Origin: Pseudogulbenkiania sp.
GTDB lineage: Bacteria; Pseudomonadota; Gammaproteobacteria; Burkholderiales; Chromobacteriaceae
Assembly (NCBI GenBank): GCA_016192025.1
Contig: JACPUY010000240.1
Location: 1 to 37,425 of the forward strand
Direction: 5' to 3'
DNA length: 37,425 bases
Below, piece by piece: positions 18,171 to 23,280 of this stretch (position 1 is the first letter of the stretch; every line of letters starts with the position of its first letter). The notes beneath the pieces are model-generated. The model was not told the DNA's origin. It saw only the letters and a program-made list of their open reading frames with translations, and searched no databases. The translations under genes and the position numbers were made by a program.

Positions 18171-19448
18171 TCAGCCGCGACGGTGCAGCGCCTTGCTGCC
18201 GATGTCGCGGCGCAGCTGCCTGCCGGCGAAACGGATCTGGTCGGCCACGGCGTAGGCCTTGCCCTGCGCCATGCGCACGCTGTCGCCCAGGCCGACCACG
18301 CACAGCACGCGACCGCCGTTGGTCACCACCTGCCGTTCGGCGTTGAACGCGGTACCGGCGTGGAACACCATGGCCTCGTCGGTTTCCTTCGGCAGGCCGT
18401 CGATCAGGTCGCCCTTCCTCGGGCTGTCCGGGTAGCCTTCGGCCGCCAGCACCACGCCCAGCGCCACGCGCCGGTCCCACTCGGCCTCGACGCGGTCGAG
18501 CTGGCCGTTGACGCCGGCCTCTAAGAGCACGGTGAAGTCGGACTTCAGCCGCGCCATGATCGGCTGGGTTTCCGGGTCGCCGAAGCGGCAGTTGAACTCG
18601 ATGGTGAACGGGTTGCCAGCAGCGTCGATCATCAGGCCGGCGTAGAGGAAGCCGGTGTACTCGTAGCCGTCCTTCTTCATGCCCTGCACCGTCGGCAGGA
18701 TGATCTCGCGCATCACCCGCGCGTGCACGTCCGGGGTCACCACCGGCGCCGGGCTGTAGGCGCCCATGCCGCCGGTGTTGGGGCCTTCGTCGTTGTCCTT
18801 GAGACGCTTGTGGTCCTGGCTGGTGGCCATGGCCAGCACATGCTCGCCGTCGACCATGACGATAAAGCTGGCCTCCTCGCCTTCGAGGAAGTCCTCGATC
18901 ACCACGCGCGCGCCGGCACTGCCCATCTTGTTGCCGATGAGCATGTCGTCGATGGCGGCGTGCGCTTCGGTCAGCGTCATCGCCACCACCACGCCCTTGC
19001 CAGCGGCCAGGCCGTCGGCCTTGATCACGATCGGCGCGCCCTTGCCGTCGACGTAGGCGTGGGCCGCCGCGGCGTCGGTGAAGGTCTCGTAGCCGGCGGT
19101 CGGGATGCCATGGCGCTGCATGAACGCCTTGGCGAAGTCCTTGGAGCTTTCCAGCTGCGCGGCGTACTGCGTCGGGCCGAAGATCTTCAGCCCGACGGCA
19201 CGGAAGGCGTCGACCACACCGGCGGCCAGCGGGGCTTCCGGGCCGACCACGGTCAGTTCGATCTTTTCCTGCTTGGCGAAGGCGATCAGCTCCGGAATCT
19301 CGCTGATCGCCACGTTGGTCAGGTGCGGGTCGAGTTCGGTGCCGGCGTTGCCGGGAGCGACGAATACCTTGGACACGCGCGGCGACTTGGCGATGCGCCA
19401 GGCCAGCGCGTGCTCGCGCCCGCCGCTGCCGATAACCAGTACTTTCAT
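18171..19448 (-). CDS. purD: Phosphoribosylamine-glycine ligase
   Basis: MKVLVIGSGGREHALAWRIAKSPRVSKVFVAPGNAGT...GPNTGGMGAYSPAPVV...FGDPETQPIMARLKSD; ORF 18171..19493 trimmed to ATG 19448. Confidence 0.95.
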   Translation of the reverse strand: MKVLVIGSGGREHALAWRIAKSPRVSKVFVAPGNAGTELDPHLTNVAISEIPELIAFAKQEKIELTVVGPEAPLAAGVVDAFRAVGLKIFGPTQYAAQLESSKDFAKAFMQRHGIPTAGYETFTDAAAAHAYVDGKGAPIVIKADGLAAGKGVVVAMTLTEAHAAIDDMLIGNKMGSAGARVVIEDFLEGEEASFIVMVDGEHVLAMATSQDHKRLKDNDEGPNTGGMGAYSPAPVVTPDVHARVMREIILPTVQGMKKDGYEYTGFLYAGLMIDAAGNPFTIEFNCRFGDPETQPIMARLKSDFTVLLEAGVNGQLDRVEAEWDRRVALGVVLAAEGYPDSPRKGDLIDGLPKETDEAMVFHAGTAFNAERQVVTNGGRVLCVVGLGDSVRMAQGKAYAVADQIRFAGRQLRRDIGSKALHRRG

Positions 19449-19481
19449 ACGTTTTCTTTCTGAAGCCTTTGGCCTATTTGT

Positions 19482-19590
19482 AGATTTGCTCACAAACGTT
19501 TCTGGCTAGGCGCGCGCCCCGCAGACAGTACATATCAGTACGGCAAGGGGCGCGCAACAACGCCAGAAACGATTTTGTGTGCAAATCTTA
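19482..19590. repeat. Intergenic element E2: long imperfect palindrome with Correia-like core
   Basis: Arms AGATTTGC/GCAAATCT (19482-19489 / 19581-19588), CGTTTCTGGC/GCCAGAAACG (19497-19506 / 19562-19571), GCGCGCCCC/GGGGCGCGC (19512-19520 / 19547-19555); core CCGCAGACAGTACATATCAGTACGGCAAGG (19519-19548). Confidence 0.8.
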
Positions 19591-21171
19591 GTGGCGGAAG
19601 TGGCGCACGCCGGTCAGCACCATGGCGATACCGTGCTCGTCGGCGGCGGCGAACACTTCGTCGTCGCGCATCGAACCGCCCGGCTGGATGATGGCCTTGA
19701 TGCCCTGCTCGGCGATGACGTCGATGCCGTCGCGGAACGGGAAGAAGGCGTCCGACGAGGCTACGGCACCGATCAGGCTCAGCCCGGCGTCAGCGGCCTT
19801 GCGCGCAGCGATGCGGGTGGAGTCGACGCGGCTCATCTGGCCGGCGCCGATGCCGGCGGTCTGGCCATTTTTACAGAACACGATCGCGTTGGACTTGACG
19901 TACTTGGCCACGCGCCAGGCGAACAGCAGGTCGCTCATTTCCTGCTCGGTCGGCTGGCGCTTGGTCACCACGCGCAGCTCGTCCAGGCCGACGTTCTTGA
20001 TGTCCGGGGTCTGCACCAGCACGCCGCCGCCGACGCGCTTCAGTTCGAAGCGGTTGGCGCCGGCTTCCAGCGGGATTTCCAGCACGCGCACGTTCTTCTT
20101 GGCGGCAATGACCGCCTTGGCTTCGTCGCTGAAGGCCGGGGCGATCAGCACCTCAAGGAACTGGCCGGTCACCGCTTCGACGGTTTCGGCATCCACTGGG
20201 CGGTTGAAGGCGATGATGCCGCCGAAGGCCGAGGTGGTGTCGGTGGCGAAGGCTAGGCGGTAGGCGGTCAGCGGGTCGGCCGCGACGGCCACGCCGCACG
20301 GGTTGGCGTGCTTGACGATGACGCAGGCCGGGGCGTCGAAGGTCTTCACCGCTTCCCACGCCGCATCGGCGTCGGCGATGTTGTTGTAGGACAGTTCCTT
20401 GCCCTGCAGCTGGCGATAGTTGGCGATGGAGCCGGCGGCCGGGTCGAGGTCGCGGTAGAAGGCGGCGGCCTGGTGCGGGTTCTCGCCGTAACGCATGTCC
20501 TGCACCTTGATGACCTGGGTGTTCAGGCGGTTCGGGAAGGCGGTGCGTTCCGGCACGCCGGCCAGCGAGCCGGCGGCCAGGCTGGTCAGGTAGTTGGAGA
20601 TGGCGCCGTCGTAGGCGGCGGTGTGGGTGAACGCCTTCTTGGCCAGCTCGAAGCGGGTGGCCTTGGACAGCTTGCCGTCGTTGGCCTTCAGCTCTTCGCC
20701 CAGCGTGGCGTAGTCGGCCGCGTCGGTGACGATGGCGACGTGCGCCCAGTTCTTGGCGGCGGAACGCACCATGGTCGGGCCGCCGATGTCGATGTTCTCG
20801 ATGGCGTCTTCCAGCGGGCAGTCCGGGTTGGCGATGGTGGCTTCGAACGGGTACAGGTTGACGCACACCAGGTCGATGTTGCCGATGTCGTGCTCGGCCA
20901 TCTTGGCCACGTGCTCCGGCAGGTCGCGCCGGCCGAGGATGCCGCCGTGCACTTTCGGATGCAGGGTCTTGACACGGCCGTCCAGCATTTCCGGGAAGCC
21001 GGTGTAGTCGGACACTTCGGTCACCGGCACGCCGGCCTCGGCCAGCAGCTTGGCGGTGCCGCCGGTCGACAGGATATGCACGCCGAAGCCGGCCAGGGCC
21101 TGGGCGAATTCAAGAATGCCGGTCTTGTCAGAAACGCTGATCAGCGCACGTTCGATCTTGGTCATCGTCAT
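19588..21171 (-). CDS. purH: Bifunctional AICAR transformylase/IMP cyclohydrolase
   Basis: [78 protein letters not shown]...ends [12 protein letters not shown]. Confidence 0.96.
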
Positions 21172-22543: not shown

Positions 22544-22819
22544 GTTTTTTATCAAGGATTTAGCGGCGAGAGGGCGGCATTGTAATGCTTTTTGCGCGGC
22601 GGGTAAAAAACATTTTGCCTACTTTTTGAGCAGGTCTGATAGCGGCAGGATAAGAGTCGGTATCGCCAGGCGGTCGGGCGGGGTCCAGTGGTGCGGCGGC
22701 GGGATGGCCGCAAAACACAGGGGAATTGCGCCACACTCAGCATCGCCGAGCGGCACCCCCGGCACGAGGCGCTCAGCAGGCCCAGGTGCGCGGCCTGATG
22801 ATGAAACGGGAATGAGGGT

Positions 22820-23280
22820 GGGGAGTCAGCCGGTAAGCCGGGTTCTGTCGTGGACAGTCATTCCTCTAGGCCGGCCATTGCTGGCAAGCTCAAGCAACCT
22901 ACCCGGGGACAACGCGAGCCACGTTAGCGCCCCCCTATTTGGTCTTGCTCCGGATGGGGTTTAGCCTGCCGTCACGTGTTGCCACGGACGCGGTGCGCTC
23001 TTACCGCAGGCAGGTTTCCCTGCCCGTCCGGCTCGGCTCACGCCTTGCCGATACACCTTTTCACCCTTGCCTGATCCGTTTTGCAGCGCCAGCAAGCTGG
23101 TTCTACAAAAACGACTTTGTCGCCCTTGCGGGCGACAAGTCCGGCCATCGGCGGTTCAGCTCTCTGTTCCACTTTCCATCGCCTCGCGGCGTCCGGTCGT
23201 TAACCGGCATCCTCCTCTACGGAGCCCGGACTTTCCTCCCCGTGCCTGACGGCACGCGGCGACTGTCTGGCTGACTCCCC
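22820..23280 (-). ncRNA. rnpB: RNase P RNA (bacterial type A)
   Basis: P1 ends pair perfectly (GGGGAGTCAGCC / GGCTGACTCCCC). Minus strand contains GAGGAAAGTCCGGGCTCC, CAGAGAGCTGAACCGCCGATGGCC, GGTAAGAGCGCACCGCG, CCGGAGCAAGACCAAATAGG, GGGTAGGTTGCTTGAGC and GAATGACTGTCCACGACAGAACCCGGCTTA. Confidence 0.96.

Follow-up and report, generated by a model that had tools for sequence, protein, structure and literature searches.

A long palindrome fills most of the gap between purH and purD in a 37,425-nt stretch of Pseudogulbenkiania sp. DNA (the window). Its centre resembles the core of the Correia repeat enclosed elements (CREE or NEMIS) of Neisseria, raising the question of whether the two are genuinely related and, if so, what kind of element has come to lie between these two genes. 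The 107-bp palindrome of the preliminary description (minus strand, 19588-19482), hereinafter E2, is confirmed in sequence, position and fold. The element proper comprises 105 bp (19483-19587), or 107 bp with the outermost A-T pair included, and thus takes up 105-107 nt of the 139 nt that separate the purH stop codon from the purD start. The minimum free energy of its minus strand is -63.8 kcal/mol compared with -36.2 +/- 3.7 kcal/mol for dinucleotide shuffles (z -7.5; 0 of 200 shuffles as good). Neither a terminator-like nor a promoter-like (sigma-70) site was detected at the E2 locus. As for an Rfam identity, no model matches E2 at gathering score, and the low-threshold matches to a microRNA model and to drum RNA look chance-like. 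A bacterial RNase P class A RNA gene was identified in the window at 22818-23278 on the minus strand (Rfam RF00010, 266.9 bits).

Features of the purH-purD locus, in window coordinates; the minus strand is the sense strand of both genes
Feature	Position	Strand	Description	Evidence
purH	19588..21171	-	gene upstream of E2; stop TAA 19590-19588	TIGR00355 743 bits, NF002049
purD	18171..19448	-	gene downstream of E2; ATG 19448-19446, 139 nt past purH stop	TIGR00877 561 bits
E2	19483..19587	-	105-bp MITE-like element with Correia core	
E2 5' arm	19548..19587	-	GATTTGCACACAAAATCG..., diverged terminal inverted repeat and inner helix	arm pairing, alignment to relatives
Correia core of E2 (29 nt)	19519..19547	-	CTTGCCGTACT-GATAT-GTACTGTCTGCGG	
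E2 3' arm	19483..19518	-	ends GCAAATC; without the ~10-nt bulge of most relatives	arm pairing, alignment
TAA	19588..19590	-	purH stop and likely one target-duplication copy (3-bp TNA)	
TAC	19480..19482	-	likely second target-duplication copy, decayed	

Evidence of homology was obtained in both directions. A hidden Markov model built exclusively from six Neisseria-type CREEs (all from one genome; their ends read TATAGTGGATTAA and their loci contain DNA uptake sequences) recognizes E2 as the sole significant match in the window (19.7 bits, E 1.7e-5), whereas the best score of the same model on 50 simulated 37-kb windows was 6.1 bits. Reciprocally, a Chromobacteriaceae-type consensus matches a named N. 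gonorrhoeae record (84.9% over half of the query, E 3e-6), which at the matched place contains a typical CREE. Given that the Neisseria-only profile matches E2 and that the Chromobacteriaceae-type consensus matches a gonococcal CREE, the homology of E2 to the Correia core, originally proposed from sequence resemblance, is real. The extended core common to the copies, those from Neisseria included, consists of GTTG on the left, the apex CTTGCCGTACT-n-GTACTGTCTGCGGC, and CGCCTnG on the right.

Moreover, E2 is not unique to its locus. The genome from which the window derives contains further Correia-core copies, with the exact core present in three, E2 among them, and the exact core pattern is found in 21 of the 61 genomes of the bacterial family compared with none for a reversed control pattern. 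A covariance model of the core region yields matches in 46 of these 61 genomes, with up to at least ~87 copies per genome as counted among the best 90 candidates of each. Since E2 is one of the 28 sequences from which this model was built, its own score is no evidence, unlike its match to the Neisseria-only profile. Under stricter filters, matches were also obtained in six other genomes among 274 drawn from the class. Among the matches listed are Pseudogulbenkiania, Aquitalea, Chromobacterium, Crenobacter, Cupriavidus (including 13 matching places on the megaplasmid of Cupriavidus metallidurans CH34), Ralstonia, Janthinobacterium, Comamonas, Acidovorax, Thiobacillus, Nitrosovibrio, Methylobacillus and Uliginosibacterium, together with a few Gammaproteobacteria (Cardiobacterium, Pseudomonas and Avibacterium). 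Neither of the two outcomes previously named as refuting, namely a core similarity short of significance and a sequence confined to this locus, was observed. The element also occurs in tandem arrays of two or three copies at three loci. Searches of phage records for the element produced no match; the exact core is present in ten viral contigs.

The copies combine this constant core with changing arms. The left arm is ~39 nt long and the right arm 36 or 47 nt, the longer right form containing a ~10-nt bulge. Within a copy the two arms are complementary (88% Watson-Crick pairs), yet they differ between copies, with GAGCCGCTAACAAAACCC in many Chromobacteriaceae copies, GAGGCCGTTTCAAAATGATT and GAGACGCTATCAAAATGATT in Cupriavidus copies, GATTCCAATTCC in Nitrosovibrio and TATAGTGGATTAA in Neisseria; in the inner part, both pairing and covariation exceed those of shuffles. 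Because most copies were detected via the core, copies were also collected in two genomes by their termini alone: a core that is, on our reading, recognizable is present in 15 of the 17 full-length copies of this sample and absent in the other two, and two short copies (54 and 77 bp) have lost it. In one genome, a dozen copies have a drifted core and a small hairpin (CGCAAACCTTCGGTTTGC) in place of the 3' bulge. With respect to the outer arms of E2, the initial assessment that they are not Correia termini stands: E2 ends in GATTTGC...GCAAATC, and its ends are identical to the canonical ones (GAGCCGCTAAC / GTTAGCGGCTC) at 11 of 18 positions. The bulge is missing from E2, and its two arms share one replacement, GCC to TTT on one side and GGC to AAA on the other; independent mutations would account less easily for three adjacent compensated positions than would arm-to-arm copying or selection for matching ends. 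Six Pseudogulbenkiania copies contain, just left of the core, a second palindrome of ~60 bp (GCAAATC...GATTTGC type) that recurs elsewhere in the genus and resembles the outer GATTTGC arms of E2, possibly by chance.

Multiple features of the flanks and termini suggest how such copies might have spread. The flanking 3-mers are identical in 23 of the 112 non-orthologous copies with well-defined ends, compared with 6.4 in shuffles (maximum 19 of 2000), and among the 23 copies in which both flanks have the form TNA, the two flanks agree in 22 (13 TTA/TTA and 9 TAA/TAA); the ends of the copies are mostly GAG...CTC. The IS1031 subgroup of the IS5 family is characterized by a TNA target, a 3-bp repeat, 17-bp terminal repeats, a length of ~857 bp and two overlapping ORFs (PMC12016507). 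Judged from sequence, the TNA duplications and GAG...CTC ends of the copies are thus IS1031-subgroup traits. Furthermore, the canonical terminus, when searched in two genomes, occurs in pairs 864 bp apart that delimit a transposon with the ends GAGCCGCTAACAAAACC(G/T). The 17-18-bp ends of the canonical copies are the ends of this 864-bp IS5-family transposon of a related genome, the two overlapping ORFs of which match the IS5 transposase model NF033580 (over 9-107 and 107-258) as well as Pfam DUF4096 and DDE_Tnp_1. The copies themselves are short, multicopy and devoid of a transposase gene, and their conserved core is absent from the transposon. From the shared ends and target, we infer that the canonical copies are mobilized by the partner transposase, that is, they would be moved in trans by IS5-family (IS1031-like) enzymes. 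The ends of E2, in contrast, have diverged from those of the transposon, and some other copies have ends for which no partner was found here: no transposon with the ends of E2 was detected in the genus, the Cupriavidus-type ends were recovered only as element-sized pairs, and none of the IS5-type elements in nine genomes of the Neisseria-type genus has TATAGTGGATTAA ends. One further copy is missing from the orthologous gap of another genome of the same genus, although this gap is too diverged for an exact empty site.

At the E2 locus, the minus strand reads TAA-GATTTGC...GCAAATC-TAC, with the purH stop codon as the left flank. The canonical relatives carry 3-bp TTA or TAA duplications, and E2 itself, with TAA/TAC, departs from a 3-bp TNA repeat by one mismatch, so that its flanks are better read as a likely decayed TNA duplication than as the TA duplication suggested in the preliminary description. 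TA is the target duplication of CREEs, and in this respect the relatives of E2 differ from CREEs. The element could have arrived at the purH TAA in the same way as the canonical copies, its two ends subsequently changing together. Taken with the dispersed family, these features make it highly probable that E2 belongs, as a decayed copy, to a betaproteobacterial family of small non-autonomous transposable elements (MITEs) that shares the Correia core, even though the imperfect flanking repeat and the match of its ends to the canonical termini at only 11 of 18 positions weaken this reading. The family as a whole has the defining features of IS5-type MITEs and E2 has part of them; E2 is not a CREE in the strict sense, on account of its termini. 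Accordingly, among the alternatives originally offered, a relative of the Correia element and a chimeric MITE both hold, because the core is homologous, lies outside Neisseria, is dispersed and is joined to different termini in different copies; an ancestor of the Correia element is not borne out.

All 29 relatives examined, two of the genus included, lack E2 in the purH-purD gap; their purH genes stop at the corresponding position, with either TAA or TGA. A conserved purH-purD element was rejected as an explanation, given that the exact purH arrangement occurs only in the window's own genome among 399 genomes of the order. The gap is hypervariable in the bacterial family, being occupied in relatives by different strong hairpins (GGTTGGCCGCAGCCTGCGGCCAACC, for example) or by an additional gene. 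In a Rhodocyclaceae metagenome-assembled genome (JAKLLG010000005.1), that is, in another family, a Correia-core copy likewise begins at a purH-like stop, which would apparently represent an independent event at the same site.

The positions of the copies relative to genes, with contexts taken from a simple codon-based gene caller rather than from curated annotation, reveal a pronounced asymmetry. Within tandem gene pairs, 87 copies are core-sense and 37 antisense (p 8e-6), and this bias resides entirely in the stop-adjacent copies (57 versus 9, compared with 30 versus 28 away from stops). Of 131 core-sense copies, 76 start between -4 and +6 nt of the upstream stop, where uniform placement in the same gaps predicts 26, whereas antisense copies show no excess (13 of 81 versus 18 expected). 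The adjacent stop codons are TAA in 37 cases, TGA in 22 and TAG in 20, so the adjacency is not only a preference for TAA; nor would target preference alone yield an obvious orientation bias, the two ends of a copy being nearly alike. We weakly favor the reading that sense-oriented copies are retained as 3'-end hairpins. At the E2 locus, the element would be transcribed together with purH and purD and would fold into a long hairpin immediately downstream of the purH stop, a structure that may shield the transcript or make it accessible to RNase III; an effect of E2 on purH and purD, such as the setting of the purH:purD ratio through RNase III suggested in the preliminary description, is possible.

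These observations invite the stronger view that E2 and its relatives act chiefly at the RNA level, as post-stop hairpins kept by selection in the role of RNase III substrates or mRNA 3'-end structures, with mobility being secondary. Consistent with this view, RNase III acts on CREE hairpins in Neisseria (PMC2649163), the excess at upstream stops is confined to the sense orientation, the stop-adjacent sense copies fold slightly more stably, and two wobble pairs of the apex are nearly invariant on the core strand. The last two findings make an RNA role of the core possible. Selection for an RNA fold of the core strand, however, should leave more G-U pairs than A-C mismatches, and this is not observed: in the clean helices (arms of 206 copies) there are 22 G-U and 59 A-C contexts, and in the inner helix the two are about equal (18 and 23). 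Because related copies share positions, the A-C excess, which possibly reflects shared ancestry, is read only as a lack of support for selection of the arms at the RNA level; the arms are better accounted for as transposon ends, in keeping with the target duplications. Given also the lack of an orientation bias away from stops, a primarily RNA-based identity appears unlikely.

Oriented adjacency to stop codons is also a property of integron cassettes, and both REP elements with RAYT and integron attC sites are extragenic palindromes that often lie directly after genes. By analogy, the strand complementary to the core could fold as single-stranded DNA that is recognized by the mobilizing enzyme, as in attC or IS200/IS605 hairpins. 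The predominance of A-C over G-T on the core strand whatever the gene direction (31 to 8 in ++ and 15 to 1 in --) fits such a mechanism, but these counts come from copies related by descent, and in the inner helix the two kinds of mismatch are in balance. Furthermore, in contrast to REP elements and attC sites, the Correia-core family has terminal inverted repeats and a 3-bp target duplication; the TNA duplications and IS5 ends indicate an ordinary DDE transposase. An attC site has its consensus boxes (RYYYAAC / GTTRRRY) at the base of the stem, and no such boxes were seen by eye in the GATTTGC ends of E2 or in the canonical ends. The family displays a conserved apex and a variable stem base, the reverse of attC. 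This mechanism is accordingly very improbable.

As for acquisition of a true Correia element from Neisseria, the Correia repeat has been described as restricted to Neisseria, with an unknown mobilizing mechanism, a size class of 104-108 bp, and an IHF binding site reported only for the 153-157-bp forms (PMC2649163). E2 fits this size class and, like CREE/NEMIS, it is palindromic, intergenic and multicopy, with the same core (CTTGCCGTACT-n-GTACTGTCTGCGG) and the GTTG and CGCCTTG flanks. However, it lacks the TATAGTGGATTAA termini and the 26-bp TATAGYGGATTAA terminal repeats. When aligned end to end, E2 is closer to the compared copies from outside Neisseria (57-69%) than to N. gonorrhoeae (52%), its closest full-length relatives being found in Chromobacteriaceae and other Burkholderiales. 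The Correia-core family, moreover, is widespread in hosts far beyond Neisseria, with termini that vary from copy to copy. A Neisseria origin is already contradicted by these data and is exceedingly improbable. The least credible reading, in which the palindrome arose by chance or is just an intrinsic terminator, could appeal to the other hairpins frequent in the purH-purD gap of relatives, but it is refuted by significant homology to a dispersed family and is at odds with the lack of a terminator-like site.

Thus, E2 is a decayed representative of a MITE family that carries the Correia core and reaches far beyond Neisseria. No relevant paper was retrieved when full texts were searched for the core string; within the literature so consulted we found no description of this family outside Neisseria, although an earlier one is possible in the subscription literature, most of which lay outside the reach of the search. 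More tentatively, we propose that the Correia core might be an old mobile module of Betaproteobacteria that takes on the ends of one IS5-type transposon or another and the copies of which are inserted or retained, in sense orientation, immediately downstream of stop codons; it would then be a transcript-oriented mobile 3'-end module whose core has a function of its own. The dependence of stop-codon adjacency on orientation is a strong quantitative pattern. Furthermore, the relatives that combine the same core with clean target duplications and a matching transposon offer tractable systems for studying both the mobilizer and the role of the core; C. metallidurans CH34 alone offers 13 matching places on its megaplasmid.
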